In this document: piece by piece, positions 37,885 through 60,202 of the stretch | How positions within the stretch are numbered: position 1 is the first letter of the stretch | Layout of the letters: each line of letters opens with the position of its first letter | Source of the DNA: Acidimicrobiaceae bacterium | GTDB lineage: Bacteria > Actinomycetota > Acidimicrobiia > Acidimicrobiales > Ilumatobacteraceae | Direction of reading: 5' to 3' | Assembly: GCA_947467375.1 (NCBI GenBank) | Contig: CANIHL010000002.1 | Span: 1-64,000 of the forward strand | DNA length: 64,000 nucleotides | Program-made: the position numbers and the translations under genes | Notes under the pieces: generated by a model | What the model saw: the letters and a program-made list of their open reading frames with translations, nothing else | Databases searched by the model: none | What the model was told of the DNA's origin: nothing

Positions 37885-38439
37885 ATGACACGTATATATA
37901 TGGTCAGGCACGGCCAAGCCGATGCCGCCTGGCACGAAAGCCCCGACCCGGGCTTAAGCGAACTTGGCCGCCAACAAGCAGCCACCGCCGCTCAACAACT
38001 CAGCCACCTCAACAATCACAACATCATCAGCAGCCCACTGCTGCGCTGCCAACAAACCGCACAGCCATTTGCAGAAGCAAAGAACACACCAATCAGCATT
38101 CACACTGAAGTGTCCGAAATTCCTACACCCAGCAACATCGCATTCGAAGAACGCGGCCCATGGTTGCAACAAGCCATGGCCGGCACCTGGCAACAACTAG
38201 GCCAACAATTTGTGGACTACAAAAACAACATTGGCAACTTCGTGAAAAATCTGAACCACGACACCGTCATCTTCAGCCACTTCATTGCCATCAACGCCGT
38301 CATTGGCTATGCCACCAACAATGACAACCTCATGGTTGCCCGGCTCGACAACTGTTCTGTCACCACGTTTCATATAGACGACAACAAAAACCTCACCATC
38401 GTGGACACTGGCAATGAAGCCACCACCACGGTGGGGTAG
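37885..38439 (+). CDS. histidine phosphatase (phosphoglycerate mutase-like)
   Basis: RIYMVRHGQADAAW, LSELGRQQA, ISSPLLRCQQTAQ. Confidence 0.87.
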   Translation: MTRIYMVRHGQADAAWHESPDPGLSELGRQQAATAAQQLSHLNNHNIISSPLLRCQQTAQPFAEAKNTPISIHTEVSEIPTPSNIAFEERGPWLQQAMAGTWQQLGQQFVDYKNNIGNFVKNLNHDTVIFSHFIAINAVIGYATNNDNLMVARLDNCSVTTFHIDDNKNLTIVDTGNEATTTVG

Positions 38440-38451
38440 ATTGTTCTTTCT

Positions 38452-38829
38452 GTGAACGCCGAAACACTGCTGAACCTCCACACCAACTGGGCATGGGTTG
38501 TCATTATTGGCAACGCCCTCGCCGGCATTTGGGCACTGTCAGCTCACAAAATGGAAACCCTACGTACCCGCGCATTGTGGTGGTACACCGGCGTTGCACA
38601 GTTCACCGTTTTCATTCAGGTCATTTTCGGCGTCATCATGGTGAACCGCGACAAAGCAGTGTTCCCAGCGTTTCACGCGTTCTACGGTTTCGTAGCAATC
38701 ATCGCAATCGCCATTATCTATTCGTACCGCGCACAACTAAAAAGCCGCGTGTACCTGTTGTACGGCTTCGGTGGGCTCTTCATCATGGGCCTTGGCATTC
38801 GAGCCATGCTCGTCGGCCAAGCCGCCTAA
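38452..38829 (+). CDS. membrane protein, ~4 TM
   Basis: hydrophobicity pattern; GTG start. Confidence 0.7.
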   Translation: MNAETLLNLHTNWAWVVIIGNALAGIWALSAHKMETLRTRALWWYTGVAQFTVFIQVIFGVIMVNRDKAVFPAFHAFYGFVAIIAIAIIYSYRAQLKSRVYLLYGFGGLFIMGLGIRAMLVGQAA

Positions 38830-38914
38830 CCCCAGCAAATTTTTGTTGCGAATTGGTTACAAAGTTCTAGTACCACTAATACCCAACGGATACGGGCATC
38901 TAGTCCACCCCTAG

Positions 38915-38958
38915 GTCACCTTTAGGCAAGGTCTTTGCAAGGCAAGGTGACTATTTTT
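38915..38958 (+). terminator. putative terminator hairpin
   Basis: GTCACCTT ... AAGGTGAC followed by TATTTTT. Confidence 0.55.
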
Positions 38959-39005
38959 AACTTTGTGGGCCACAAGGTCTTCACTTAACTAATGGGGGTT
39001 AGTTC

Positions 39006-39563
39006 ATGTTGTTATTTCATAGGGAAATTCAAACCACGGGTGATCTACCAGCGATGATGCCGCTGGTTCAAGAATTTGTGGATATAGCAAAGAGCGTTGG
39101 AGTACCACTCCATGTTTGGACAGGTACTAACGGTTGCGTTGCAGGAACTCTGACGTTCAACTCCATGTACGAATCACTTGCTGCACGTGCAGACGGAACC
39201 GCAAAATTGATGGCCGCAAAAGGTTGGTGGGAAACACTTCGCAAATTCCGCGAGTATGCAGTTTCTTCTCAGCCAGACACCATTTACAACTATGTTCGCG
39301 GTGGAACAGAAAATGTCGAAATTCCGGTTGGCACAATCATTCAGCAGAACTACTTTCAACTCAGTGCAGCGGGTGGAGACTTCCTAGCAGCGATTAAGTG
39401 GATGACAGAACTCGTTGAATTGACAAAGTCAATCACCGGTGTCGATGCCAACATTGTTAACAGCATTTACGGAACGCTTGGTCAAATTGGCTACTTCGCT
39501 GGTTATGCAAATGCAGGACAAATTGACGAAGTCCGCGCAAAACTTACAGCCGATGCAAAGTGA
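39006..39563 (+). CDS. hypothetical protein (185 aa)
   Basis: long ORF with GGGGG upstream and good protein composition; no family recognised. Confidence 0.7.
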   Translation: MLLFHREIQTTGDLPAMMPLVQEFVDIAKSVGVPLHVWTGTNGCVAGTLTFNSMYESLAARADGTAKLMAAKGWWETLRKFREYAVSSQPDTIYNYVRGGTENVEIPVGTIIQQNYFQLSAAGGDFLAAIKWMTELVELTKSITGVDANIVNSIYGTLGQIGYFAGYANAGQIDEVRAKLTADAK

Positions 39564-39683
39564 TTCCCGAAGTTCATGGAGGGTGGAAAGTTCGCCATTC
39601 CAGGAACCGTTGTGCAACGTCACATCGTAAAGATCGCGTAATTGCGAAACGTAACTACCGATATACGAAAGGAAAAATAGAAA

Positions 39684-40043
39684 ATGGAAGATTACAAAAA
39701 CAGAGCATCAGCACTTGGGCGTTCGAATATGGCAATGGCTACTGCATACCAAGCGGTAAACGTTGCTGTTCTTGCAATCATTGTGTTTGGCAAAATAGCT
39801 GAGGCAGACGACAGCATCAAGCGACTCGTTGCATTTACTGCAGTTGTCACCGCTATCACTGCGTGGCTCTTCAGCAGCAATGGATTGAAAATTGCTGAAG
39901 ATGCTGCAAAAGATATGACTGCGGCAGAAGCAGCAACAGCAGCAGGAAAGAACGGTGCTAAGCAGCCTTGGAAGATCTACCAGCTCTACACCTTGGCAGT
40001 AACTATTGCGTCCATCGTTATCACGCTTACCGCTATTTACTAA
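39684..40043 (+). CDS. small membrane protein (119 aa)
   Basis: three hydrophobic stretches; followed by terminator. Confidence 0.7.
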   Translation: MEDYKNRASALGRSNMAMATAYQAVNVAVLAIIVFGKIAEADDSIKRLVAFTAVVTAITAWLFSSNGLKIAEDAAKDMTAAEAATAAGKNGAKQPWKIYQLYTLAVTIASIVITLTAIY

Positions 40044-42260: not shown

Positions 42261-42296
42261 GAAATTTTGCGTTATCAGGGCTATTCAAGATAATTG

Positions 42297-42902
42297 ATGT
42301 ATGTTTTTGCCAATTTCTGTATGATCTATTTTGTGCGAAATCGTAATTCTTCAAAGGTAAAGATTTTTTTGGGGGTTGTGAGTATTCTTGTAGCTACATC
42401 TTGCAGCAACGATGTAAAGGTTGACGAGAAGTACTTGCCGTGTACCAATTACAATGTTGTTTCAGAGAGAGAGCTCCCTCTTGTGAAATGTGATCAAAGT
42501 CGTTTGATCGGAAAGCTGCAAGAGTTACTAGGAATTCCAGTTACCGAAAAATTTGATGTAGGTACAGCTATAGCGGTAGAAAAGTTTCAAGTTAGCCAAG
42601 GCCTTTTTGCTTCAGCGAGCATTGACGTCGACACTATAAATCGAATATCGGAACTATTTGGAAATGGGCTAAACGGCGAGGCATGCCTTTTCAACATAAG
42701 TCAGCCATCGCGACCGTGGAAGAAATGCGACTTCAATAACGAAATTATTCCGTTTCAGAGATTTATGGGAATTGAAGCCGATGGTTTTATTGGCCCTGGG
42801 ACGGTTGAGGCAATAATTGCCTTTCAGAACCAATACGGTTTACCGGAATCAGGTGCACTAGATGAACCAACATGGAAATTATTTGTTTCAATAACTAATT
42901 GA
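42297..42902 (+). CDS. lipoprotein with two peptidoglycan-binding (PG_binding_1-like) repeats
   Basis: VATSCSN lipobox-like; KLQELLGIPVTEKFDVGTAIAVEKFQVSQGL and FQRFMGIEADGFIGPGTVEAIIAFQNQYGLPESGALDEPTW. Confidence 0.75.
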   Translation: MYVFANFCMIYFVRNRNSSKVKIFLGVVSILVATSCSNDVKVDEKYLPCTNYNVVSERELPLVKCDQSRLIGKLQELLGIPVTEKFDVGTAIAVEKFQVSQGLFASASIDVDTINRISELFGNGLNGEACLFNISQPSRPWKKCDFNNEIIPFQRFMGIEADGFIGPGTVEAIIAFQNQYGLPESGALDEPTWKLFVSITN

Positions 42903-42977: not shown

Positions 42978-43397
42978 TTACTTGCAGAGCTCGCTCTTGC
43001 CCCAGTAAGGCGCGATTACAGACAGCCGGTTATACGGATAAATGATTTTGATGACATCATTCGTGTCAAGCCTTGTAAACACGTACTCACATCCAGCAAG
43101 TAAACCACTCTTATATCCAACAGCTTGCCCGCTGGAGTAGCCATCGCTAACTCCTTCTTCTCGTGCGACATCTTTTGCTGCCTCAAGTTCAGAGGTTGAA
43201 TATTTCTTTCCAACAATCCCCGACAGCGCACCCGCAGATGTTAGGACGACTCCCAAGAGGAATGTTGCAGAAGCTACAGCAATCATTCTCGCTATCGGAC
43301 GTTGATGCAGTTTCGAAGCGCTCTTTTCACTCTTTAAAGATTGCGCTCCAGCTGGTGTCGTATCAACTGGCATATTATTTGTTGGTTCACTTTCCAT
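42978..43397 (-). CDS. single-TM protein with extracytoplasmic GYxxG-type domain, paralog of 43425..43937
   Basis: TM AVASATFLLGVVLTSAGAL; GYSSGQAVGYKSGLLAGCEYVFTRL...PYWGKSELCK. Confidence 0.7.
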   Translation of the reverse strand: MESEPTNNMPVDTTPAGAQSLKSEKSASKLHQRPIARMIAVASATFLLGVVLTSAGALSGIVGKKYSTSELEAAKDVAREEGVSDGYSSGQAVGYKSGLLAGCEYVFTRLDTNDVIKIIYPYNRLSVIAPYWGKSELCK

Positions 43398-43424
43398 TGG
43401 TCCCTCACTTTTGTTTTGTAGCGG

Positions 43425-43937
43425 TCATTTGCAGACTTCGCTTCTGGTCCAGTAATAGCCGTAAATATCGCTTGCGTAAAACGGAGATTCAATTGCAATC
43501 AAATTTGGGCCAATTTTTGTAAATACATAGTAACAACCGTCTTTGTAACCCTGTTTGTAGCCTTCATCATTGCCGTTCGTGTATCCGTTTAGGTTTCCCT
43601 CTTGGTAACCCGTATCGAAAGCTACTGACCGCTCCTTCTTCAAGTCGATAGATGCCTTGCCCGCAACGAACCCACCAACACTTCCACCTACTATGAGCAC
43701 GAACCCCAATACGGATAGAAGGACCTTACGTTTTGTGGAGCGCTTCTGTTTTGGCTCCGAAGTGTTGTTCGAAGGCGAAGCCTCCATAGGGCTGGTCGCT
43801 AAAGGCTGAGCCGCAATTGAAGGAGTCGCAATTGAAGAGACCGATTGTGAAACGTCAGTGGCTAACGAAGTTCCACAAGAGGTGCAAAATGAAGAGCCGG
43901 AGTTCTGAGCTCCGCATGAAGTACAGAATTGGCTCAT
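43425..43937 (-). CDS. zinc-ribbon plus TM plus GYxxG-type domain protein
   Basis: CTSCGAQNSGSSFCTSCG; TM VLLSVLGFVLIVGGSVGGFVAG; GYQEGNLNGYTNGNDEGYKQGYKDGCYYVFTKI...YYWTRSEVCK. Confidence 0.8.
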   Translation of the reverse strand: MSQFCTSCGAQNSGSSFCTSCGTSLATDVSQSVSSIATPSIAAQPLATSPMEASPSNNTSEPKQKRSTKRKVLLSVLGFVLIVGGSVGGFVAGKASIDLKKERSVAFDTGYQEGNLNGYTNGNDEGYKQGYKDGCYYVFTKIGPNLIAIESPFYASDIYGYYWTRSEVCK

Positions 43938-45025
43938 GGTTTGCCAATGGTCTGCAGTTTGCTCTGAATTGCAGTGGATTTCTTTATTGCGAGATAGCTG
44001 AGACCAGCTGAAGAGAGAAGCATCAGTGCGATAGCCGGTCCAATGCCATCACTATTTTCAGTAATTGCAGTAATGAAAGCAATGATTCCGGCAAATCCGG
44101 CAAATCCGCCGATGAGTAGTGAGGTTTTGCGTGAGCGTTGGACTGCAACAGAAATAAGAAGAATTCCCGCAACTGCAAGAAGAAGCGATGCTGCGGTTCG
44201 ATCGCCGCTCGATCCAAGTACGCCAAATGCTCCTGTTCCCTCGAAGACGATACCTACACCGATAAAAATACGACCGAGTGAGGGCCAATCTTTTCGATCG
44301 AGATTCCATGCGACTGCAAGCAAGATAATTCCAACAATTAGAAGAAGAGAGGATGATTGCTGGGCTACGGAATCAAGTAGGTCTGTAGGGGAATCAAATA
44401 CGGAGTACCCCCTAATTGATGACTGCATAATCCAGATGACAATTCCAAAGCCTATTGAGAGCAGTCCAGATGAAAGCAATGCAGGTCTGCCGCGAAGGAT
44501 TGGTAGGGCCCATGCAGCTCCAAAAGCAATTCCAAGGACAATTAGAGGAAATCCGATATCTCCATCATCGATTGAGTTCCCAAAAAGGAAAAGCACACTT
44601 AGTGCAAGCAGAGGAATTGCTGCAACCGTTGCCCCAGGAATCAGGTCTTTACTGATGAATCTGATTGAAAGATATGTAACCGCAAAACCAATTGCTGTCC
44701 ATACGAATCCGATCATAAACGGCGAATCTGAATAGCTTGAGTCGATCGCGTCAAAAGCAAGTGCCAGGACAGCAAATGCAAATAACGCTCCGCTGATCAT
44801 TGTGATCACTGACTGCAAGTCTGTGGGTGGGGACGTATGGCGCTGAGCTTGCAAATCCTTTAATAGATCTGCTTTTAGTGATTGGACCTTGGACGTTTGA
44901 GCTTGTGGAACGTACGAGGTTTGCTGTGGAGTGGAATTAGTGACCACACCTATATTCAGTGGCTGACCGCAAGCCCTGCAAAACTTTGCATCGGCTGCAT
45001 TTTCGTGCCCATTAGTACAAAACAT
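43934..45025 (-). CDS. zinc-ribbon (CxNGH variant) polytopic membrane protein
   Basis: MFCTNGHENAADAKFCRACGQPL then many TMs; AGGGGGA RBS. Confidence 0.8.
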   Translation of the reverse strand: MFCTNGHENAADAKFCRACGQPLNIGVVTNSTPQQTSYVPQAQTSKVQSLKADLLKDLQAQRHTSPPTDLQSVITMISGALFAFAVLALAFDAIDSSYSDSPFMIGFVWTAIGFAVTYLSIRFISKDLIPGATVAAIPLLALSVLFLFGNSIDDGDIGFPLIVLGIAFGAAWALPILRGRPALLSSGLLSIGFGIVIWIMQSSIRGYSVFDSPTDLLDSVAQQSSSLLLIVGIILLAVAWNLDRKDWPSLGRIFIGVGIVFEGTGAFGVLGSSGDRTAASLLLAVAGILLISVAVQRSRKTSLLIGGFAGFAGIIAFITAITENSDGIGPAIALMLLSSAGLSYLAIKKSTAIQSKLQTIGKP

Positions 45026-45092
45026 TTGTCCCCCTTGGTTTAGTACCATTCTGGCACCAGATGATTTTTCCTGTCAAACTTGAAACTAGTGT

Positions 45093-45632
45093 TTACTCGC
45101 CGGGCTGGCATGGATTGTAAACAAAAAACACTTCTACGTAGACTCCGTTTGTGGGTATAAAGTCACCCGCAGGGCCGCCGTAGAAGCGCACATTTGTATC
45201 CTTTGTTTCAGACAGACTTGGTCCGTCTGTTTTTGGGAACTCGTCAGGCGACACTAGATGAAAACTCGCGTCGTAGAACTTTTGCGCATTTACTTGGCCA
45301 TCACCTGCAGTTTCGCCCGGTTTGTAGTATCCATAAACAAGCGCAACGGCAACCTCGTAATCGTTTAACTTGTTGGCTTTACTGAAGTCATCCATTTTCT
45401 TACGAACAGTGCGTAGAGCTTCATTTTCATCTGTATAAGTCAACGGTAGAGGCGTCGGGAAGTACGTCCTTTCCGCTAACTTGCATTCTTGATCCCGGTT
45501 TCCCGCTACCTGAAAAGAAGCAGTTGCGAGGAACACAAGAGCAACACCTAAAAGTAGGTCAGTGAAGAGCCATCCAGCTAAACCAACGACGTCTTCACTG
45601 CGACGGCTCTTATTTCTTCTTAAATACGACAT
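45093..45632 (-). CDS. N-terminal single-TM protein, possibly MotB/ZorB-type
   Basis: GLAGWLFTDLLLGVALVFLATASF TM with internal Asp; no OmpA domain recognised. Confidence 0.7.
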   Translation of the reverse strand: MSYLRRNKSRRSEDVVGLAGWLFTDLLLGVALVFLATASFQVAGNRDQECKLAERTYFPTPLPLTYTDENEALRTVRKKMDDFSKANKLNDYEVAVALVYGYYKPGETAGDGQVNAQKFYDASFHLVSPDEFPKTDGPSLSETKDTNVRFYGGPAGDFIPTNGVYVEVFFVYNPCQPGE

Positions 45633-45635
45633 TTT

Positions 45636-46109
45636 CTACTTTGAATCTGATTCGTAACTGATGACTACGCCTTGTTTACTAAATGCAATTCGGCAATATG
45701 TATCTTTCGAAACTGCAGCGTATTGAAGGTTCACATTCTCTGTGAAATTTGTGTAGGTATCTGGTAGACCTGTGTTTTCAAAATCGAGGATGACTTGGAG
45801 TAACGCTTCATTTAATGCCCAGGCGTCAGCAAGGGGTTGCCAATAGTTGTCCGCCGCCGCTGCCTCCGCCGCCAAAATCGCTCGTTTTCGAACGTCAGTT
45901 AGATTTGCGTCTGAGTCAGCATTCTCTCCAACTTTCAAACCAACTTCAACGATGTTTGCTGAATCCAAACTGCTTGTGATGTCTTGCATGCATGACATCG
46001 CTGCTTTTTCATCACCATTACTTCCCCCAGTAATTCCACATGAGGTCATTAACAACGCCATTCCACCTGCTGCAAAAGCAACTTTAAGTGCAGAGTAAGT
46101 TTTCATCAT
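45636..46109 (-). CDS. lipoprotein
   Basis: AGGMALLMTSCGITGG lipobox; 4-nt overlap with upstream gene. Confidence 0.72.
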   Translation of the reverse strand: MMKTYSALKVAFAAGGMALLMTSCGITGGSNGDEKAAMSCMQDITSSLDSANIVEVGLKVGENADSDANLTDVRKRAILAAEAAAADNYWQPLADAWALNEALLQVILDFENTGLPDTYTNFTENVNLQYAAVSKDTYCRIAFSKQGVVISYESDSK

Positions 46110-47512
46110 CGGCCTCCTCTAATAATGCCTTGTAATTGCTGGTGAATTGCATCTAAATCTTCACGGAGTTGCTTGGTTCCGTATTCAACTGAAGCGTTTG
46201 TTCTTGCCAATTGTTTGCTTGCTTCCTCGATGGTCAGGGCTGCTTCGGCAAATAGCGTGGTCACGTTTCCTCCAACTGCAGAATTCAAACCTTGCACTGA
46301 TGAAACAAGATCTTTAATTGAATCAGAAATTTGAACTCCTGTGCTAGCGACAAAAGTGTTGGTGCTTTGGTTTAGCGCTTCAATGTGTGGGTTTAGAGCG
46401 GCCACACCTGCTGATACCGACTCAAGACGGGATGCACTCTCGTTTACATCGCGAGCTGCTTGCGTGAGGTCATTGAGTGCCTCAGCCAAAGCTTCGCCGA
46501 TTGATTCAGGGTTTGCCTGACGCTTTCCGTGCAACGTGTTTGAGATTTCCAGGCCGAGAGCAAGTCTTTTCTTTTCAATTTTCTCAAGCGCCTGCGCGTT
46601 TTCGGCTTCAGCCTTTACGGAGGATGCACCAGATACAAAAGTAAGAACGATGATGGCAAGGATCAGAATTGCGTCCAGGAATGCCACATGTTGAATTTTC
46701 CAAAATGGATTCAAGTACATGTCTGCATTCGTGAGGTATTTGTTTGGGTTTTGCCAGAATTGTAGAAATTGAAGGTTCAAGTTGCTGCTTCCCTCTTTTT
46801 CGTACCATTCTGCGTATTTTCCGAACGCACTCACTGCACGACCAATACTGAGCCAGGTGAGAAGCACTGGAACGAAGACCAAAACGTTGCGGAAAAATCC
46901 TGTCAAGCGAGAAATCGTGTCCCAACGACTTCCGTCCACCGGTTCTGGATGAGGGAGCATTTCCTGTGGGTCTAAAGACGCCCACATACTTAGGTCGTCA
47001 CGGTTTGCAACAGCCTGTTGTAGGCCCCTGATGTAGGGGTGATCAGTTTCGTTGTATTCAGAGGCCCAATTCTGGAGATTTTGCATCGCGTCTATGTTGA
47101 CGGTTGTTCCGAATAGAAATGGTCGAGGAGTCTGCGAGTCATCCTGGCCTAGGTCATCTGCGTCGTCGTCAAGGTCATCTGCATCAGTGGCATCTGTGTC
47201 GTCGTCAAGGTCATCTGCATCGGTGGCATCTGTGTCGTCGTCAAGGTCATCTGCATCGGTGGCATCTGTGTCGTCGTCAAGGTCATCTGCATCGGTGGCA
47301 TCTGTGTCGTCGTCAAGGTCATCTGCATCGGTGGCATCTGCATCGTCGCCCATCAAGTCAAGTTCAAGAGCTTCGCCAGCCACTTCCGCCCACTCGGATA
47401 GTGCCGAATCGTCCGTCGAATCGCTCTGAATAGTCGGTTCAATTACCGATCCACATATACCGCAAAATTTCGCGTCATCTGGTTGTTCATGCCCATTTAT
47501 ACAATTCAACAT
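46106..47512 (-). CDS. zinc-ribbon / Asp-rich repeat / two-TM / coiled-coil protein
   Basis: MLNCINGHEQPDDAKFCGICG; (TDATDADDLDDD)n; VLVFVPVLLTWLSIGRAV and HVAFLDAILILAIIVLTFV TMs; long coiled-coil tail. Confidence 0.8.
   Translation of the reverse strand: MLNCINGHEQPDDAKFCGICGSVIEPTIQSDSTDDSALSEWAEVAGEALELDLMGDDADATDADDLDDDTDATDADDLDDDTDATDADDLDDDTDATDADDLDDDTDATDADDLDDDADDLGQDDSQTPRPFLFGTTVNIDAMQNLQNWASEYNETDHPYIRGLQQAVANRDDLSMWASLDPQEMLPHPEPVDGSRWDTISRLTGFFRNVLVFVPVLLTWLSIGRAVSAFGKYAEWYEKEGSSNLNLQFLQFWQNPNKYLTNADMYLNPFWKIQHVAFLDAILILAIIVLTFVSGASSVKAEAENAQALEKIEKKRLALGLEISNTLHGKRQANPESIGEALAEALNDLTQAARDVNESASRLESVSAGVAALNPHIEALNQSTNTFVASTGVQISDSIKDLVSSVQGLNSAVGGNVTTLFAEAALTIEEASKQLARTNASVEYGTKQLREDLDAIHQQLQGIIRGGR
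47163..47342. repeat. five 36-bp tandem repeats encoding TDATDADDLDDD
   Basis: unit TCGTCGTCAAGGTCATCTGCATCGGTGGCATCTGTG x5, units 1 and 5 slightly diverged. Confidence 0.93.
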
Positions 47513-47517
47513 TGGAA

Positions 47518-49413
47518 TTATCCCCCCACACTTTCTGCGCGCTTGTCACTGTATACCAATAAGTACTCTGATCCCGAAAAATTGAAATAACTAGCTGATG
47601 AAATTTGTCCACTGATGTCGTAACGACATTTTCCAATTTTTTCGAGTGAAATATTTCGACAAAGTTCAAGTGTGGATTTTTGAGTTAACTGGAAATATGT
47701 AAAGCCACTCAAAGGAAGGAGAATTGCGGCTGCGCAACTTGCCAATATCTTTTTTTGCTTGGCTTTGTGACGAGCTATTTCTGCAAGTTCCTGATTTCGC
47801 TTTTGTACTTCTGCGTCATAAAAACTGGCATCGTCATCGTCATTGCCGTTTCGAGACGAAGCTTGACGCTTTTTGGGAGCATCAGGAATGTATGGCGCAG
47901 CGGGAATCGATATTGAATGGCGCAATTTTTCGGGTGCGAGAATAATTATTCCTGAAGGAGAGCGGACTCCCGTAATCACATCAATCTGTACATCGCCCCC
48001 ACCGGGAAGATTCAATTTTCTATCTTCGATTAGCTTCCCGGGTTTTCTTTGAATTTCATGTGAAATAGTTTTCCTAGGCGATTTGATTTGAATCTGAGCG
48101 TAATTCACATAAGGAGAAACTGGCCAAGTCCACTGCACTTCTGCTGACTCGATGGAAATTCGCGACGTGATCGAAGCCAAGCCTGCTTCAACTAGCCCAT
48201 GTTTTACGGCTCTGTCTAAATGCGGATGATTCTCAAGAGTCGAAAGTGCCCCAGTTGAGAAATGGAGAGAAACTTCAGTCTCACGGGCGTCCGAAAGCAT
48301 TTCCTCGAAATCCTCTTTGGATTGAGGCGCAGCAAACATTGTCATTGCCGGGGGTAGGTCAAGTTTGAAATGTCCAGAGCTGTGAGTTTCTCGACTCAAC
48401 AAGATTCTCTGCCGAGCCTGAGTCGAAGTTTCTATTAGACGTTCTTTGGCAAGATGAATTTCGGCTAACGCGACAGTTTCTCTATCAATTTCACTTTTGA
48501 TCTCTGCAGATTCGCGAATCACATATCTTGCGAACCCTGATTCATATGCTCGTCTGATCGCAAGTGAATCTCGAGAGTTATCTCTGATAATCCTGAGTTC
48601 ACTCGAAAGGGAATTGAATGCATGTTCTTGGCCAGAGTTGTAAGTCTCAATCAGTGCATTGACGAGTGATTTACTTTGAAGATGATGGAATTTATGGATT
48701 TCGTTAATCGTCGGGTAGACGGAATACTCTTCGATGAGAAATCTCCAACACCAGAGTGCAAACAGGGCGCGATCTGATTGAAGAGGGTCGAGTCCGTTTG
48801 GTACGTCCCAGGTAGGAGATTTGATTGGGTGCTTTTCGCGTAATTCTGGAGTTGTGATGGAATCGGCATCAAGGATAAATATCGACGGAGTTATTCCTAA
48901 GCGAACAACCAAATTGTTCCCCGAGTAATCGGAATAGACAAGACCATGCCGGTGGACAGTATGAATCGCATCGTGCAAGTCGATTGCGATTTCTAGGCGG
49001 TCCTGTTCGCTGACATTGGGTTTTGCGGACGTAACCGCTTTGCGGTTGAAGTAATTTTTGTCCATTAAAAACTTCATTTGCAGCAACTGCTGGCTTGTTC
49101 GACCTGCAGTTGTAAGCGAGAAGTAGGCATCGTCTGGTGCTTTTGGCATTGAAAAACCCGAAATATTGCCGCTTACCCCAAAACCTTCCACTGGCCAACT
49201 AAACCGAGTGAGAAAAGTTGCACGATCGCTTGGGCGTGCCCACTGCTGGATATCGATCAATCGTTCAAGCATCTGCGCTAGCTCACCCGTTAGTGGTGAA
49301 TTCAGCTTCTTGAGGTATCGATCTGGAAACCCAGGATCGCGGTAAACCGATGCAAATCCGCCGCTATTGACGAATTCGTTCTTGGTTACGTTCGGGAAGT
49401 TTGGGTTGATCAT
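47518..49413 (-). CDS. TerY-P-type protein kinase-like protein with C-terminal TM
   Basis: GGFASVYRDPGFPDRYLKKL; HGLVYSDYSGNNLVV; IFILDADS; TM ILASCAAAILLPLSGFTYF. Confidence 0.72.
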   Translation of the reverse strand: MINPNFPNVTKNEFVNSGGFASVYRDPGFPDRYLKKLNSPLTGELAQMLERLIDIQQWARPSDRATFLTRFSWPVEGFGVSGNISGFSMPKAPDDAYFSLTTAGRTSQQLLQMKFLMDKNYFNRKAVTSAKPNVSEQDRLEIAIDLHDAIHTVHRHGLVYSDYSGNNLVVRLGITPSIFILDADSITTPELREKHPIKSPTWDVPNGLDPLQSDRALFALWCWRFLIEEYSVYPTINEIHKFHHLQSKSLVNALIETYNSGQEHAFNSLSSELRIIRDNSRDSLAIRRAYESGFARYVIRESAEIKSEIDRETVALAEIHLAKERLIETSTQARQRILLSRETHSSGHFKLDLPPAMTMFAAPQSKEDFEEMLSDARETEVSLHFSTGALSTLENHPHLDRAVKHGLVEAGLASITSRISIESAEVQWTWPVSPYVNYAQIQIKSPRKTISHEIQRKPGKLIEDRKLNLPGGGDVQIDVITGVRSPSGIIILAPEKLRHSISIPAAPYIPDAPKKRQASSRNGNDDDDASFYDAEVQKRNQELAEIARHKAKQKKILASCAAAILLPLSGFTYFQLTQKSTLELCRNISLEKIGKCRYDISGQISSASYFNFSGSEYLLVYSDKRAESVGG

Positions 49414-49455
49414 TTAGAGGTACCAAGACGCACAATAGGGCAATACAGGCAAAAT

Positions 49456-49485
49456 CACATAATTTGGTATGTACCAAATTATGTG
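49456..49485. promoter_or_regulatory. perfect 30-bp palindrome in the divergent promoter region
   Basis: CACATAATTTGGTA-TG-TACCAAATTATGTG, 14-bp arms. Confidence 0.75.
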
Positions 49486-49523
49486 CATAGAGTTAGGCTA
49501 AATAGAGCGTGTTCGGGGGGACT

Positions 49524-50585
49524 ATGTCAAATGGTACGAATTCTGCAATGAATCAAATTCATGGCCTTGCTAAAGGTAAGTCACCTGTTGTTGTGATGAC
49601 TATCGCGGGCCTTTTGGGTGGTATCGCTGGTTATGTCTTGTCGGAGTTGATCCAAGGCGGAGATACAAGCCGATTTTTTCCCGAAAGCTTGTACCTATCC
49701 ACTGGAGTCTGGTTCATGCTTATCATCGCTGGCATCGGCCTGCTGCTAAGTGCATCTCAAGGAATCATTGAGAAAAATGTTGAGAAGAGCACATCAAATA
49801 TCTTGACTGCGTTACCGGCATTAGCTATCGGCGGGTTTATCTCTGGAGCAGTTGCTCAAAAAGTGTATGAAAAGTTGCTTGAAAACGATGGAAGTCAAGT
49901 AACTGCTCGCACGATTGCTTGGGGAATTGCAGGTGGACTCGGAGGCTTAGCCGTAGGCGCCGGATTTAGATCTCTAGTGCGCGTGCGAAACTGTGGCATC
50001 GGTGGTCTTGGTGGTGGCTTGCTCGGAGGATTGCTGTTTGACCAGATTGCAACAGATGGCGGAAGCTCAGCAAGGTTTGTCGGGATTGTGTTGATTGGAA
50101 CCCTCATGGGTCTCTTCATCGCTCTATTGGATGCAGCTACAACGGACTACTACCTAGAACTTGCAAGCGGTGAGCAACGCGGTCAGCAATTTGTACTCTT
50201 CGACAATGCTTCAGTTATTGGATGTGCTCGAACTGTGGCTGTGACCTTGGTGCGTGATCCTCTCGTTACTGAACAGCACGTCCGTGCAACAAAAACAAGT
50301 GGCGGTTTGGCCATTGAATGCCTTAAGGGCGCATCTGCAGTTTTGATTAATGGTCAATCAACTCAAAATGGCACACTCCCAGTGGGGGGAACTATTCAAA
50401 TTGGGAACACGGTTCTTGTTTTGCAAAGCAAGAAAGGGAAATCCGTTCGACCAGTTGGATCTGTTGCAGCTGTGCCAAATGCTGGAGTGCAGGCGCCACA
50501 AACATCCTCTAACGAATCAAGCCGAGCAAGCGAACCGGTGAGAAGTCGTCCAACCATTCAAATGAACAACAATCCAAAGCAATAA
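49524..50585 (+). CDS. polytopic membrane protein with C-terminal FHA-like domain
   Basis: several N-terminal TMs; YYLELASGEQRGQQFVLFDNASVIGCA...VTEQHVRATKTSGGLAIECLKGASAVLINGQSTQNGTLPVGGTIQIGNTVLVL FHA pattern; GGGGGGA RBS. Confidence 0.78.
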   Translation: MSNGTNSAMNQIHGLAKGKSPVVVMTIAGLLGGIAGYVLSELIQGGDTSRFFPESLYLSTGVWFMLIIAGIGLLLSASQGIIEKNVEKSTSNILTALPALAIGGFISGAVAQKVYEKLLENDGSQVTARTIAWGIAGGLGGLAVGAGFRSLVRVRNCGIGGLGGGLLGGLLFDQIATDGGSSARFVGIVLIGTLMGLFIALLDAATTDYYLELASGEQRGQQFVLFDNASVIGCARTVAVTLVRDPLVTEQHVRATKTSGGLAIECLKGASAVLINGQSTQNGTLPVGGTIQIGNTVLVLQSKKGKSVRPVGSVAAVPNAGVQAPQTSSNESSRASEPVRSRPTIQMNNNPKQ

Positions 50586-50594
50586 GGAGCGAAC

Positions 50595-51269
50595 ATGTCA
50601 ACTGAAACTTCAGGTAACGCAGTACTTCCGTTTTATATTCTTTGCGACGAGTCTGGATCCATGGATGCAAATGGTGGAATCGATGCAATCAACAGTGGTT
50701 TGCCGGAGTTGCATGCAGCAATTGCAGGCGACCCGCTGGTTTCAGACAAATGTCGAATTGGTCTTTTGACGTTCTCTGATATTGCAGAGGAACTATTGCC
50801 GCTTTCCAATTTGTCGGATGTAGGCGCAATGCCTGGATGTGCCGCGAAGGGTTTAACTAACTATGGCGAGGCATTTAATCTGCTTCGCGTTGTTATCCAG
50901 CGAGATATTGCAAATTTGAAAGCGCAAGGCTTACAGGTTTACCGACCTGCTGTGTTTTTCATTACTGACGGAGAGCCAACAGATGACTGGGAAGCAAATC
51001 ATCGTGCGCTTACAGATAAGGCAATGAATCCTCAAGCCCCACACATCATTTCGTTTGGAGTTGCAGGTGCCAATCCAGCAGTTATCGGAAAAATTGGAAC
51101 CAAAGCAGCCTTCATTGCAAACAACGGTGTAGATCCTGGAAACGCATTGAAGGAAATCTTGAAATCGTTAACAAACACGATTGTGAACTCGAGCAGTTCA
51201 TCGGTACCTACTCTGGTTGTCCCATCAGCACCACCTGGAACTACTGCAGTTCCGCTGGACACGATGTAG
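50595..51269 (+). CDS. vWA-domain protein, TerY-like
   Basis: ILCDESGSMDANGG (MIDAS DxSGS), GLTNYGEAF, FFITDGEPTDDWEA. Confidence 0.88.
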   Translation: MSTETSGNAVLPFYILCDESGSMDANGGIDAINSGLPELHAAIAGDPLVSDKCRIGLLTFSDIAEELLPLSNLSDVGAMPGCAAKGLTNYGEAFNLLRVVIQRDIANLKAQGLQVYRPAVFFITDGEPTDDWEANHRALTDKAMNPQAPHIISFGVAGANPAVIGKIGTKAAFIANNGVDPGNALKEILKSLTNTIVNSSSSSVPTLVVPSAPPGTTAVPLDTM

Positions 51270-51283
51270 ATAATTCGATAGAC

Positions 51284-52885
51284 GTGAAAAATAGGGCAAA
51301 ACTACTCAGCTCGTCGTATCTGCGCTTCTTTGTCGCGGCTTGTGCAATTACATTGCTTTCAGGCTTTTCAGTACATAGCCATAACGAAGTTCGGCCATTT
51401 GTAAATTGTGTTGAGCCTGGCAATCCACCTGGTTGCGAACAAGAGAAAAAGAATGAGAAGACCGATACTACAAATGCGTCGAACGAGACAGTCCCCACTG
51501 CTCAGCCTGCTGAAGATGAACCCAGGAGTTCGGGATTTTTTGATGGAGTACTTGAAAAGACATTACTTTTACTAGTTTTTTCCATGTTGGCTACTGGCAT
51601 ATTTTTTCTTGCTAAAGCTTTAGTAAGTCCACGCAGTCAAAACAGTTACACAAGTCCGACTAACCGCAATTTGCCTTCGGCCGCCGGGTACAGACAATCT
51701 TCGAGTGCACAAGCTCCAGTTCGAAACCGGCCACAAGTAAATCCTGTAGTAACGGCGAATACAGGTTCAGGAATTCGAACCCAAATTCCTCGTGTAGAAA
51801 GAGAATCAATCGAGTTGGCTGCTCCGGTGCAGGCCAATGTAGATACGAATAACGTTGCCGAGCCAGAGCAAACCTCGGCGCGCGTTCGCCCGAACCTTGT
51901 ACCAGTAGGAATGCCAGAAGCTGAAGAAACTCCAAATGTTCTGGATGAGGTATCAGAGAGAAATATTATTAAGCCACCTCAAATAGGGGACCCTTCGGCA
52001 TTCAGAAAGAAAAACTGGTGGGATCCAAAGGTTGAATGGTGTCAACTATCGCCATTAGGTATGACCAGCGACATCACCTGTGATATCGGGACGTTTGGCT
52101 CTTCTGCAGTAGCTGCTGCCTCGTTACGTGGCAATAAACACAAACTTGACGCAAAGCCTTGTCAAGACGCATTCAATGTTCAATCTGCAACAGATATGTC
52201 TGGCTCCCAGTATGTAGTTTCCGTGTTGTGCGACGGTATGAGCAGTGCACGTTATTCGCATTATGGAGCACGCAGAACCTCTCAAGTGTTGTCAGATGCA
52301 CTTTGCAGAATGATTGAAAGTTCAGACTTCGTTGACATCGATTACGTGAATGCGAATATCGAAAATGTTCTTGAATATTGTCGACAGAAGGTAATTCCAT
52401 CTGAGATCGATTTATTTGGAGCCTCTGGAATTGACCCAAGTAGTGTCGAGGAATCAGACTTCAATACGACCGTCACGTTTTTAATCGCACCGTCTACTAC
52501 GAGCAGTAACAATACGAATGCGATTGTCGGATGTATTGGTGATAGTCCGATATTTATCTTGCACGGCCCTGAAGGTGTGTGGGAACAAATTGGTGTTATT
52601 GACTCACCTGATGAATTAGTCAATCCTGCTACTGCAGCCTTCCCGGGCTCTATTGCAATTGCAATTGATGAACTTGTTATGCAAAAAGGTGATGTTTTGG
52701 TTGCTATGAGCGATGGTGTTGGAAATTTCATCAACGTGAGAGGAAATCAGACATTGCTTGGAACATATTTGGCCAAGCAATGGTCGACGCCGGTAAACAT
52801 GGCAACTTTCGTCAATGATGTTTCGTTTGACATGAAGTCCGCTGATGATGATCGAACTGTCGTTGCAATTTGGCAAAGAATATAG
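51284..52885 (+). CDS. membrane-anchored PP2C-type protein phosphatase
   Basis: signal/TM, extracytoplasmic loop, second TM; catalytic CDGMSSARYSHYGA, GCIGDSPIF, MSDGVGNFI, ADDDRTVV. Confidence 0.83.
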   Translation: MKNRAKLLSSSYLRFFVAACAITLLSGFSVHSHNEVRPFVNCVEPGNPPGCEQEKKNEKTDTTNASNETVPTAQPAEDEPRSSGFFDGVLEKTLLLLVFSMLATGIFFLAKALVSPRSQNSYTSPTNRNLPSAAGYRQSSSAQAPVRNRPQVNPVVTANTGSGIRTQIPRVERESIELAAPVQANVDTNNVAEPEQTSARVRPNLVPVGMPEAEETPNVLDEVSERNIIKPPQIGDPSAFRKKNWWDPKVEWCQLSPLGMTSDITCDIGTFGSSAVAAASLRGNKHKLDAKPCQDAFNVQSATDMSGSQYVVSVLCDGMSSARYSHYGARRTSQVLSDALCRMIESSDFVDIDYVNANIENVLEYCRQKVIPSEIDLFGASGIDPSSVEESDFNTTVTFLIAPSTTSSNNTNAIVGCIGDSPIFILHGPEGVWEQIGVIDSPDELVNPATAAFPGSIAIAIDELVMQKGDVLVAMSDGVGNFINVRGNQTLLGTYLAKQWSTPVNMATFVNDVSFDMKSADDDRTVVAIWQRI

Positions 52886-52894
52886 TGGCGGCCC

Positions 52895-53896
52895 ATGCCA
52901 TTACCCATTGAATTTAGGACTCTCACATCCTCTGGTCAGATGGTGGAGTTAGGCAGGGGAGGCGAAGGAGCGGTTTTTAAAGTTCCCAACTTGGGTGACA
53001 AGGTGTACAAAGAATTTTTGGCTGCTTCGTACACTTCACCTGATCACTCAGCGTTGACTCGCCTCATTGATTTGCAAAATCAGTGGACCCCAGAAGAGAA
53101 GGTATGGCTAACTAATAGAACGGTATGGCCAGAAACCATGGTTCTCGACAATGGAAATCTTAAAGGCTTCGTCATGCCTGGCATACAAAGACGATATTTT
53201 CGTAAACATGGGATTCGGGTAAACCCAAAGACGGTTTTATGTGAGTGGAATTATCTTGCCTTAAGAACAAAATTTCATAACAACCCGAACATAGTTACTG
53301 AGGTGCCTCGAGTTACGCCGCCAGATGCGCTCGCACTTGTGCATGACTTTGCAAAAACTATGAAGATCCTGCATAAGTACGGCGTAATCATTGGAGACAT
53401 TTCAGGTAAGAATCTTCTTTGGACAGATACGCCGAGTTTTCAGGTGATGATTATTGATTGCGACAGTTTCAGAATTATGGGTCAAGGCGGTGTGGCATCA
53501 CCAAAACAATCACCAGATTGGGATGATCCCCATTTAAATGGAAAGCCAACCAGTCAAGAAAGTGATATCTACAAACTTGCAATTGCAGCTTTCCGAGCAA
53601 TTTGGGCAAGCGGCACCGATAGGCCATCAGCACCTAGCTACGTAGTTCCTGCTGCACCTCAAGGAGTGCCAGATGAGATAAGAGGTCTCATTGCGCGAAG
53701 TTTGCAGCCAGCTGGTCGACCTACTGCGGAGGAATGGGAGAAAGTGCTGGCCCTACCCGCGATGTTCAGGGGGCGCCCTGCTGTGAAGATGGGCTCAAGT
53801 TCTGGGCTACGTCCATCTCAACCAAATTCGAATCACGGTACGCCAATGGGAACCCCTAGGCCGACGGTAAACATGAAACGTGATGAAACTCAGTGA
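52895..53896 (+). CDS. TerY-P-type protein kinase-like protein (soluble)
   Basis: LGRGGEGAVFKV...KVYKEF; HKYGVIIGDISGKNLLW; MIIDCDSF; SPDWDDPHLNG. Confidence 0.82.
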   Translation: MPLPIEFRTLTSSGQMVELGRGGEGAVFKVPNLGDKVYKEFLAASYTSPDHSALTRLIDLQNQWTPEEKVWLTNRTVWPETMVLDNGNLKGFVMPGIQRRYFRKHGIRVNPKTVLCEWNYLALRTKFHNNPNIVTEVPRVTPPDALALVHDFAKTMKILHKYGVIIGDISGKNLLWTDTPSFQVMIIDCDSFRIMGQGGVASPKQSPDWDDPHLNGKPTSQESDIYKLAIAAFRAIWASGTDRPSAPSYVVPAAPQGVPDEIRGLIARSLQPAGRPTAEEWEKVLALPAMFRGRPAVKMGSSSGLRPSQPNSNHGTPMGTPRPTVNMKRDETQ

Positions 53897-54873
53897 ATCA
53901 CATTCCGCCAGACCGCCCAACTGTAGGTATGGATGGAAAAATTACACCTCCAAAAGCTCCGGTCTCACTTAAAACAGGAATTGTTTATCCGAAAAAAAGG
54001 AGATTTGCGGTAAGTAATCCCAATGTCGCCGCACTCTTGATAGTTGCTTCAATCTTGGTCTTTGCTGGGTTGGTCATTCTTGGAGATAAAAATCCATCGC
54101 CAAGCAGCACAGAGGATGGAGCACCAAATTCTACTGTTGCTGAATCAGACACTGTCGACCTTGCACCAGGAATTGAAATTGTAAGTGGTGTAAATGTGAT
54201 TAAGTCAATTGTTCAAGTTGTTGCACAAGATAGTGGTGAAGATTGCGCATACGGTTCTGGTTCAATGATTATTGATTCAAGCTATGTATTGACAAACTTT
54301 CATGTTGTAGAAGATGATGAAGATTGCGATATAGATAAAATATTTATCGAAACGATCGAACGAATAGATCTTGCGCCAGTGAGAACGCATAGTGCAGAAA
54401 TCTTTGCTATCAACGAGGATGCCGATTTGGCGATTCTGAAAATCAAGCCGCTGTCGAGTAACGGCGTTGAATTAATTCCTGTGAAAATTGCCCCAGAAGT
54501 TCGATTGGGGGATGAGTTGACAGCGATTGGATTCCCAGCAATTGGCGGCGAATCGGTAACAGTAACGAAGGGTGAGATTTCAGGTTTCAGCAATTATGGC
54601 GGAGTGAGATGGATTAAGTCATCGATCTCCATTTCTGGTGGAAACAGTGGAGGGGGAGCATTCAATTTGAATGGCGAACTCGTTGGAGTTCCAACTTTAA
54701 TGGGGGTGCCTGGCATTGATGAAACAACCGACTGCAGACCAGATCGCGACACAAATGGAGACGGAGAGATTGATTCCGATGATGAGTGTGTTTCAATGGG
54801 CGGCTTCATCAATTCACTTTCGCCTGGGTCGGGGGCAATTGAGTTGGCAAAATCTAAGGGGCTAATCCCTTAG
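53893..54873 (+). CDS. membrane-anchored trypsin-like serine protease with EF-hand-like insert
   Basis: TM VAALLIVASILVFAGLVIL; TNFHVVEDDEDC, EDADLAILKI, SGGNSGGGAFN; DTNGDGEIDSDDE; GTG start, 4-nt overlap. Confidence 0.85.
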   Translation: MNHIPPDRPTVGMDGKITPPKAPVSLKTGIVYPKKRRFAVSNPNVAALLIVASILVFAGLVILGDKNPSPSSTEDGAPNSTVAESDTVDLAPGIEIVSGVNVIKSIVQVVAQDSGEDCAYGSGSMIIDSSYVLTNFHVVEDDEDCDIDKIFIETIERIDLAPVRTHSAEIFAINEDADLAILKIKPLSSNGVELIPVKIAPEVRLGDELTAIGFPAIGGESVTVTKGEISGFSNYGGVRWIKSSISISGGNSGGGAFNLNGELVGVPTLMGVPGIDETTDCRPDRDTNGDGEIDSDDECVSMGGFINSLSPGSGAIELAKSKGLIP

Positions 54874-54929
54874 GAAGATTGTTTGTTAGTTTGATTCAGG
54901 TTGATAGTCCAAGAATTAAAGGAGTAATC

Positions 54930-55499
54930 GTGGCACTGTGTTCAAGTTGTGGGAACGATATTTTTGGTGGAAAGGTTTGTTACAAGTGTGGTGCTCGAGT
55001 TGGTGGATTTGTTGGAGCTAGCCCACAGGGGGATGTAGCGAACCATCAGCAAATGCAACCCCAAACTCAATTTCAATCACCGCCGCAATACCAACCTCCG
55101 CAGCAATACCAAGCACCAGCGCAACAGCAGTACCAAGCGGCTTCACAGCAGATGATTCAGAGTCGAGGAATGCCGAGGTCAATGGGATTCTCAGAAGCAA
55201 TTAAGTATTGCCTGTCAAATTTTGCAAACTTCAATGGACGCGCAAAAAGATCTGAGTACTGGTACTTCGCGCTGTTTGCTGCAATCACATATTTCATTTT
55301 GGCTTTATTGTCACCAGGTTTATACGTAATCGCATTATTTGCACTGATTATCCCTACTACTGCTGCTGCAGTTCGCCGATTGCATGATGGGGGACGATCT
55401 GGCTGGAATCTCTTGTGGTCGATAGTTCCCTTCGGCAGTCTGGTGATTCTTGTTTGGCTTGCAAGTGAAGGTAATCCTGGAGCAAACAAGTACAACTGA
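54930..55499 (+). CDS. zinc-ribbon plus DUF805-like membrane protein
   Basis: LCSSCGNDIFGGKVCYKCGARVG; Gln/Pro linker; FANFNGRAKRSEYWYFALFAAITYF...VRRLHDGGRSGW. Confidence 0.88.
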   Translation: MALCSSCGNDIFGGKVCYKCGARVGGFVGASPQGDVANHQQMQPQTQFQSPPQYQPPQQYQAPAQQQYQAASQQMIQSRGMPRSMGFSEAIKYCLSNFANFNGRAKRSEYWYFALFAAITYFILALLSPGLYVIALFALIIPTTAAAVRRLHDGGRSGWNLLWSIVPFGSLVILVWLASEGNPGANKYN

Positions 55500-55506
55500 A
55501 TAAGTT

Positions 55507-56409
55507 TTAGTCTCCCATGCCGTTTATGAGGTTGTAGGTCTCAATTAGTTCGTGGTACCACTGGCCTTCAACTAAGCCGTCTACAGGGAGATGATTCTGG
55601 AATTGGTAAACCTTGATTGAGTATTCAGTATCAGGCCCAAAGTAACCATCCACTGGATTGCCTGCCAAATAATAGAGCAACCCATATTCGTACAGAACCT
55701 GCTGAAAGTCACGAATTCCATCGCCTCTGTCACACAATTTGTATGGCTCAAATTCTTTTACGGCAAACGACGAGCACTTTGGAGAAAGGTTTAAGGAAAA
55801 TTGATTTCCAAAATCGTCTACAGCGCTACCAGTGAATTCTGAGCCATTCCATGAATAAGAAATTGGGATAGCACCACCGTCGGCGCAAGAGGGTAAGCAC
55901 GGTTCGTGGTACGCAGTAATTGATGTTCCGACTATTTCAGAGGCGTGTAAGCCGAGATCAAAATTCAGCGACTTCCAAGATCCAGATACTTGACTGAAAA
56001 CCTGGCCTTCAGGGTCGTTTAGGTGGTAGCCGGTATATATATCGTCGTCACCTTCGCCCGTGAGATCAACAAGTTGGACGCTGTCGATTCCCCATGTGCA
56101 TTCATCTCCGCACCAATCGTCAATAAGGATTAAATCGGTGCCAAAAACGAACTGTGATCCATCCCAGTTCCAAATAGAAATAACTCCTTTATCCGAGTTT
56201 GCAGATACTCCGAATATTGCACCGTTTGAGATTCCAGCACCACCACTGAGGGCCGGTTCAGCCAAAGATTCAATCGTTGTCTCAAAGTTCGATCTAGCAG
56301 CAGCCAACTCTTCAGCGCTTATTGAGGGAGCAGAATTTGGATTTGAGGACCCACCACACGAAACCAGTACAACAAGGGCGCTGAGAAGAGTCAATTTCAT
56401 AAATCGCAT
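55507..56409 (-). CDS. lipoprotein with C-terminal PG_binding_1-like domain
   Basis: VVLVSCGGSS lipobox; YLAGNPVDGYFGPDTEYSIKVYQFQNHLPVDGLVEGQWYHEL. Confidence 0.78.
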   Translation of the reverse strand: MRFMKLTLLSALVVLVSCGGSSNPNSAPSISAEELAAARSNFETTIESLAEPALSGGAGISNGAIFGVSANSDKGVISIWNWDGSQFVFGTDLILIDDWCGDECTWGIDSVQLVDLTGEGDDDIYTGYHLNDPEGQVFSQVSGSWKSLNFDLGLHASEIVGTSITAYHEPCLPSCADGGAIPISYSWNGSEFTGSAVDDFGNQFSLNLSPKCSSFAVKEFEPYKLCDRGDGIRDFQQVLYEYGLLYYLAGNPVDGYFGPDTEYSIKVYQFQNHLPVDGLVEGQWYHELIETYNLINGMGD

Positions 56410-58384: not shown

Positions 58385-58531
58385 ATGAAACTTGGCCCAG
58401 GGCTTACCTTCTCATGGAAGCGTGCAATTGGTGTGACTAAGGCGAAGAGATCAATTGCGCGTGCAACGGGAATACCAACAACTCGAAGCGGACGTCGAAA
58501 CAAACTCGGCCGATGGATGGGAATGAAGTGA
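58385..58531 (+). CDS. 48-aa basic peptide
   Basis: MKLGPGLTFSWKRAIGVTKAKRSIARATGIPTTRSGRRNKLGRWMGMK; overlaps start of next ORF; not in track. Confidence 0.4.
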   Translation: MKLGPGLTFSWKRAIGVTKAKRSIARATGIPTTRSGRRNKLGRWMGMK

Positions 58532-59130
58532 ACCATTGTCCAAACTGTGGTCAAGACAGTCCCTCGAATACAAATTTTTGTATTAAATGCGGTTCAGCAT
58601 TTGTGGCTTCTGGTTTGAAAACTTTTCCTGGTCGTCCCGTCATTTCTATGGACTCTCAAAAGCAAGGACATCTACCTGCAAATTCGTCGGATTATTCGTA
58701 TCAAAACCAAAATCCTCAAACCCCGCAGTTTCAACCTTTGGCTAATTCGCTGCAGGTACGAAATAGAGGAAAGCAGCAAAATAAAATCGTCGTAGGTGCG
58801 GTCGGTGCTTTAGTTGCTGTCTTAGCTCTGTTTCTTGTGTTCGGTAAAAGCAGCTCGAGTTCGCAAAGCGTTACTCCAAATACCCAACAATCCGGAACCG
58901 ATTACGTCCCGGCGTCAACTGAAAATAGCCAGTACTACTCAAGCTACGACAACTACCCTCAAGAGTTTCGTGATGCATTTGTCAACAGTTGTATAGACGG
59001 TAGCCAATATGACTACTGCGTTTGTGTGCTTGAGGGTTTGGAAGCAACCTATTCCGCAGACGAACTTATGTATCTGTTTGATTCGGGCGATTCGACGTAC
59101 ATGAATGCTGCGGTTCTAAGTTGCATTTAG
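58513..59130 (+). CDS. zinc-ribbon plus TM plus Cys-containing extracytoplasmic domain protein
   Basis: CPNCGQDSPSNTNFCIKCG; TM IVVGAVGALVAVLALFLVF; C-terminal CIDGSQYDYCVCVLEGLE. Confidence 0.82.
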   Translation: MDGNEVNHCPNCGQDSPSNTNFCIKCGSAFVASGLKTFPGRPVISMDSQKQGHLPANSSDYSYQNQNPQTPQFQPLANSLQVRNRGKQQNKIVVGAVGALVAVLALFLVFGKSSSSSQSVTPNTQQSGTDYVPASTENSQYYSSYDNYPQEFRDAFVNSCIDGSQYDYCVCVLEGLEATYSADELMYLFDSGDSTYMNAAVLSCI

Positions 59131-60057: not shown

Positions 60058-60202
60058 TGCTTTCCGAAGTACGAACTAGGACGGTCGCATTTTTGAATCT
60101 CTAATATCTATAACCAGCTAAACGGTTACAATCCTAGTAATGGTATGAATATGTAATAAGAGTCTGCGGCTAGTAGATCTAATCAGATTGGAATTTTTTT
60201 AT

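Follow-up and report, generated by a model that had tools for sequence, protein, structure and literature searches.

The TerY-P triad of a vWA protein, a PP2C phosphatase and a kinase appears in published work as an accessory to CoCoNuTs and other systems (PMC11090510), and its occurrence within a two-armed membrane-protein locus of an Acidimicrobiaceae bacterium raises the question of what such a triad would listen to there. The locus lies at positions 42978-55499 of contig CANIHL010000002.1 (assembly GCA_947467375.1), and the window analysed here, 64,000 nucleotides in length, is the first 64 kb of this 76.8-kb contig from a genome of 1.68 Mb in 101 contigs. We found that the conserved unit is a five-gene core in which the triad is joined by two membrane proteins, mF and mD, that look like a motor pair of the Zorya/ExbBD/MotAB kind. 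With a probability of roughly 55%, we favour the reading that the locus encodes a motor-coupled TerY-P system, in which a cell-wall-anchored motor or sensor gates a phospho-switch. The core genes and a second kinase are as follows.

46106..47512, minus strand, mF: zinc ribbon, acidic repeats, two transmembrane (TM) helices and, by hydropathy, a long coiled coil in the cytoplasm; suggestive likeness to a motor A-subunit (ZorA/ExbB-like)
45093..45632, minus strand, mD: motor B-subunit-like (ZorB/MotB/ExbD-like), TM helix with invariant GWLFxD and a predicted OmpA-like outer domain
50595..51269, plus strand, pB: TerY/YegL-like vWA protein with a complete metal-ion-dependent adhesion site (MIDAS; DxSxS, T, D)
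51284..52885, plus strand, pC: PP2C phosphatase preceded by two hydrophobic helices at the N terminus
52895..53896, plus strand, pD: soluble YegI-like kinase with RPAVKM and RPTVNM in its tail
47518..49413, minus strand, mG: second YegI-like kinase with a C-terminal TM helix and a short outer tail

Scanning a vWA alignment against 85,462 species genomes returned 129 relatives, of which the best 80 loci were kept and annotated with hidden Markov models (HMMs). mF-like and mD-like genes were both present in 16 of these loci and both missing in 64, and no locus carried one of the two alone (one weak mF-like match, in L075, was not counted). Triads standing by themselves were also seen in L009, L010, L012 and L032. 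The triad is thus often found without the other genes, yet all 16 pair-bearing loci have it next door, L042 being cut by a contig end after the vWA gene. Gene order varies among them, being mF-mD-vWA-PP2C-kinase in Streptosporangiaceae and others, mD-mF-vWA in L045 and L054, kinase-vWA-PP2C-kinase-mF-mD in L040, which has two kinases as in the window locus, and divergent in the window locus and L038. On the vWA tree, 17 motor-linked rows, window included, fall within one 24-row clade (97/79), and motor linkage is clustered, with 5 changes against a mean of 15.9 and 0 of 500 shuffles as low. Because 9 of these 17 rows form one tight Streptosporangiaceae/Thermomonosporaceae group, the independent motor-linked lineages number about six. 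A preliminary description of the window, made from its letters, had named routine occurrence of the triad without the other genes as evidence against its own reading, and the loci bear this out in part. It is not the full gene set that is widely conserved; what is conserved is the core of mF, mD, vWA, PP2C and kinase.

Ten of the 16 pair-bearing loci add genes for BrxD (E 7e-175) and the BrxHI helicase (E 0). This linkage bears on an alternative in which the locus is not immune but regulates envelope stress and cell-wall homeostasis, with the pair and the lipoprotein mE sensing wall damage and the switch adjusting wall synthesis via a DegS-like protease. FHA, PP2C, membrane kinases and such a protease would suit wall signalling, the flanking genes encode PG_binding_1 proteins, and the window version comes without BrxD and BrxHI. 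We nevertheless consider a wall regulator unlikely, given that the same core stands beside BrxD/BrxHI in those ten loci and that its distribution is sporadic, unlike that of housekeeping genes: among 247 genomes sampled from the class mG matched only the window's own two kinases, and the single mF positive among 298 phylum genomes was the window's own. Viral contigs searched with mG and mF contained no relatives.

The motor label rests on mD more than on mF. In the relatives of mD the TM helix contains an invariant GWLFxDxxL, with GWLFxD and its TM Asp present in 17/17 sequences. An AlphaFold2 (AF2) model of mD from a 17-row alignment (pLDDT 76) comprises the TM helix followed by a β-α-β-α-β-β fold, for which a Foldseek search of the PDB ranked OmpA-like domains first (YfiB, OprF, FopA and OmpA; best E 0.013, probability 0.87). 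A TM helix with an OmpA-like domain is the architecture reported for ZorB and MotB (PMC11890865). There is also a weak ExbD match of mD (E 0.14), and the TM helix aligns with that of TolR around its Asp in hhalign, below significance. These features fairly support mD as a motor B-subunit. In mF, the positions invariant among relatives include F.P...TW in TM1, and the second helix of its AF2 model, 59 residues long, is continuous from the membrane into the cytoplasm, which is suggestive of a motor A-subunit. Alignments of mF and mD with MotA, TolQ, MotB and TolR gave sensible registers with no significance. The preliminary description had noticed a coiled-coil TM protein and a protein with an Asp in its TM helix but missed the link between them as a motor-like pair, which is the most informative part of the locus.

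Several results weigh against the motor-coupled reading. All Foldseek matches of mD lie above E 0.001, and the residues with which OmpA binds peptidoglycan cannot be made out in it. For mF, Foldseek returned nothing below E 0.18, though ExbB chains recur among its helical matches, hhalign to motor proteins gave probabilities below 1%, and weak PADLOC ZorA matches (E 0.002) cover the coiled-coil tail only, so that homology of mF to ExbB, MotA or ZorA is not statistically established. The 64 of 80 related triads without the pair, together with 7 rows of the 24-row motor clade that also lack it, indicate that the pair can be lost or replaced. Moreover, the window locus has neither BrxD/BrxHI nor a recognisable DNA effector; BrxD is absent from the window's genome at E 0.001, where the helicase query found distant helicases only. 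A further explanation keeps the triad as a TerY-P defence module but makes mF an unrelated coiled-coil scaffold and mD a single-TM anchor, with no motor. It is favoured by the lack of significant homology of mF to motor proteins and by the coiled-coil proteins that accompany TerY-P elsewhere, for example in CoCoNuTs (PMC11090510). However, the invariant TM Asp of mD, its predicted OmpA-like outer domain and the strict pairing of the two genes are traits that motor pairs share, leaving an unrelated scaffold doubtful.

Other searches with the pair were negative: profile searches of the PDB with full-length mF gave coiled-coil noise only, and plasmids searched by tblastn gave no matches to mF, mD or the relatives of the two in L056. 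A Rhodococcus plasmid locus (L011, 7986-11266) places DUF4407, a hypothetical protein and a YegI-like kinase beside restriction genes; it was considered as a relative of mF/mD and rejected, having no HMM match. In mF itself, the same acidic unit (DATDADDLDDD) is repeated five times at a spacing of 12 residues, and these repeats are missing from its L038 homologue.

Catalytic or metal-binding motifs are intact in both kinases, the PP2C, the vWA and the protease. pB matches the vWA family PF13519 (E 2.9e-6), and the adjoining pC matches PF13672 (E 1.4e-13) with its acidic metal-site motifs intact. The kinase pD matches PF00069 at E 1.4e-4, below the Pfam cut-off, and is clearly YegI-related by tblastn to YegI, while mG, without any Pfam match, aligns with pD at E 7e-16 and retains the kinase G-loop, Lys, D..N and DxD motifs. 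All three triad proteins are homologous to proteins of the YegL/YegK/YegI type, bearing out the TerY-P-like triad proposed earlier. A tellurite or metal-stress response as in classical ter clusters, which the TerY-like vWA and the many zinc ribbons would recall, is highly improbable, with no Ter genes turning up among the scanned proteins (TerC and TerD were not searched by name) and the motor-linked vWA clade, as far as its loci were read, being associated with BrxD/BrxHI rather than with ter genes. The earlier tellurium frame is unsupported.

The window arrangement recurs in L038, a 10.6-kb contig labelled Nanopelagicales from a metagenome-assembled genome whose binning is unchecked. It carries mD (partial), mE, mF and mG and then pA, pB, pC, pD, pE and pF, ten genes in the same order as in the window, with mA to mC lying beyond its end. 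Nine gene pairs between the two share about 50-95% protein identity (mE 49-54%, pF 61%, pA 77% and pB 95.5%), with all frames open, no stops, nonsynonymous divergence (dN) of 0.05-0.44 and synonymous divergence (dS) of 2.6 or more, or saturated; the 95.5% identity of pB is thus kept despite saturated synonymous sites. These identities, the lack of stops and the dN/dS values indicate that the two loci separated anciently or moved between lineages, under purifying selection. That ten genes keep their order, and that all nine frames compared are open although synonymous sites are at or close to saturation, makes the locus more than a chance assembly.

An open reading frame (ORF) listing and an independent codon-model gene caller gave the same 13 genes in two divergent arms, mA to mG on the minus strand and pA to pF on the plus strand, as the preliminary description had them. 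Its operon-like spacing also held, with 4-nt overlaps at 43934/43937, 46106/46109 and 53893/53896 and other gaps of about 4-43 nt, whereas the region of divergence, put at about 110 bp, measures 95 bp (49414-49508). The remaining features are the following.

42978..43397, minus strand, mA: one-TM protein with a Gly/Tyr-rich repeat outside, paralogue of mB
43425..43937, minus strand, mB: N-terminal zinc ribbon, one TM helix, Gly/Tyr repeat outside (PF13240 E 2.9e-4, below cut-off)
43934..45049, minus strand, mC: zinc ribbon (PF13240 E 1.4e-4) and about 10 TM helices by hydropathy
45636..46109, minus strand, mE: lipoprotein between mD and mF, lipobox LLMTSCG
49456..49485, no strand, palindrome: 30 bp (14+2+14) with perfectly matched arms, candidate operator within the divergent promoter region
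49509..50585, plus strand, pA: four TM helices and a cytoplasmic FHA domain, C-terminal RPTIQM motif
53893..54873, plus strand, pE: cytoplasmic N-tail with RPTVGM, a TM helix and an extracytoplasmic trypsin-like (DegS-like) protease
54879..55499, plus strand, pF: zinc ribbon and DUF805 membrane protein

Domain calls among these proteins differ in firmness. The trypsin domain of pE (PF13365, E 6.8e-25, with catalytic H, D and S) and the DUF805 of pF (PF05656, E 1.2e-22) are solid, as are the vWA and PP2C calls; the FHA domain of pA (PF16697 E 1.6e-7, just below cut-off; FhaB match at 2.4e-4) and the pD kinase stand near or below cut-off, mG is recognised via pD, and zinc-ribbon matches across the locus are weak (E 0.03 to 1e-4). 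The topology of pE, with the N-tail inside and the protease outside, is predicted from the positive-inside rule. The paralogy of mA and mB (blastp 31%, E 1.3e-19), the sole such copy pair in the genome, is a further point that had been missed. The palindrome is a possible operator between the arms. Its 20-bp core has no second copy in the genome with up to 3 mismatches allowed, and the palindrome is not conserved in L038.

Across the 74 called genes (21,940 residues), the short motif RPx[VIL]xM is found at five sites, against a shuffle mean of 0.26 and maximum of 3, a comparison that is partly circular because the pattern was defined after the first copies were seen. The sites are in the pA tail (one), the pD tail (two), the N-tail of pE (one) and a protein outside the locus (one). 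The firmer point is that all four in-locus copies are kept in L038, and related RPx[IVL]x tails occur in the kinases of L040, L045 and L054. The motif could serve in docking. A phospho-Thr reading of RPTVxM was rejected as a general rule, L038 having Ile at two of the four positions and both loci having Ala at another of them; phosphorylation of the Thr is not required by the data because it is not always kept. The outside protein (58513-59130), which carries RPVISM, is a zinc-ribbon TM protein.

Either end of the locus lies tail-to-tail with a gene for a PG_binding_1 protein (42294-42902 and 55507-56409). Judged by eye, the first 40 kb or so carries what look like housekeeping genes, and past this point come lipoproteins, the locus, a second vWA protein (60188-60919; lipoprotein-like and extracytoplasmic by prediction) and then restriction and helicase genes. 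These form a cluster at 69.9-76.4 kb of the contig (5944-12411 of L014, which is contig 64001-76820), comprising a PLD-helicase-DUF3427 restriction protein (PADLOC mREase_IV, 5e-246) together with HNH, Schlafen group 3 helicase, possible MazG-like, PDDEXK-like and small nuclease-like genes. They fit a defence neighbourhood, but lie about 14 kb downstream of the locus. GC content drops from about 0.52 to 0.45 near 38000-40000 and stays low through the contig end; a genomic island on this basis was set aside as weak, other contigs of the genome ranging from 0.46 to 0.52.

How does the locus compare with known systems? Like the TerY-P triad, it has an adjacent MIDAS vWA, PP2C and YegI-like kinase. 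Unlike TerY-P kinases, which are reported to carry a C-terminal zinc ribbon or OB fold (PMC11090510), pD ends in a short low-complexity tail with neither, and the locus adds a second membrane kinase, an FHA protein, a protease and the motor-like pair, with a membrane-bound PP2C. ZorAB of Zorya is reported to form a 5:2 complex in which ZorB binds peptidoglycan and ZorA has a bundled cytoplasmic tail, both being needed for defence (PMC11890865). The paired A/B membrane proteins, the TM Asp and predicted OmpA-like domain of mD, the long cytoplasmic tail of mF and the DNA helicase genes linked in relatives resemble it. By contrast, mF has two predicted TM helices, there is no significant ZorA or ZorB sequence match (mD has no ZorB HMM match, and ZorA/ZorB homology is not reached by HMM), the output is a kinase/phosphatase switch, and domain scans of both arms found no ZorC, ZorD or ZorE; the ZorA family was likewise absent from 248 phylum genomes. 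The BrxD-BrxHI dyad of 10/16 related loci recalls type-2 bacteriophage exclusion (BREX) and Shango (BrxD+BrxHI, SngB+SngC), whereas the window locus lacks it and PglX, PglW and TerB were not recognised among the operon proteins scanned. As with ExbBD, TolQR and MotAB, mD has a B-subunit layout, with similarity below significance. The BrxD-linked kinases (L056 11575-13065 and relatives) have an extra C-terminal stretch matching the C-terminal end of the PADLOC PglZ model (E 1.4e-18), and an nSTAND1-WD40 protein (L051 11724-16013) lies near one motor-linked triad. The earlier view of an envelope-spanning variant not recognised as described survives literature checks: the CoCoNuT (PMC11090510) and GAP1-N2 papers place the triad in other settings, and a search that left most subscription papers outside found no description of TerY-P combined with a motor-like pair.

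In the motor-coupled reading, mF and mD would together make up a membrane complex like those of ExbBD, MotAB and ZorAB. The Asp within the membrane and an OmpA-like domain turned towards the cell wall would come from mD, and the helices of the channel, along with a long coiled-coil tail reaching into the cytoplasm, from mF. This complex would sense wall or membrane disturbance, most likely phage DNA entry, or use ion flow for sensing, and its tail would control the vWA/kinase/PP2C triad. The kinases pD and mG would phosphorylate partners on the vWA scaffold, PP2C would reset the switch, and pA would read phospho-threonine through its FHA domain. The output may vary between lineages: DNA would be the target of the BrxD ATPase and the BrxHI helicase in Streptosporangiaceae, and the window locus would likely act through the membrane protease pE and the membrane proteins pA, pF and mC. 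The BrxD/BrxHI linkage, the neighbourhood and the resemblance to Zorya point to a function that is probably anti-phage. Taken together, these points suggest an immune system of an envelope-alarm type that has not been described. That it amounts to an undescribed immune class, in which a wall-anchored ion motor gates a Ser/Thr kinase-phosphatase switch with interchangeable outputs (a DNA helicase module or a membrane protease by lineage), we propose more tentatively, at somewhat less than even odds.

Zorya places motor-like complexes in phage defence, and how such a complex signals to effectors is unsettled. In this locus a motor-like pair is linked genetically with a kinase, a phosphatase and a phospho-reader, all of them components whose chemistry can be assayed. 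If the motor-coupled reading is true, phosphoproteomics could test directly how an envelope event turns into an intracellular alarm, and for at least one clade the input of the widespread TerY-P triad would be explained.

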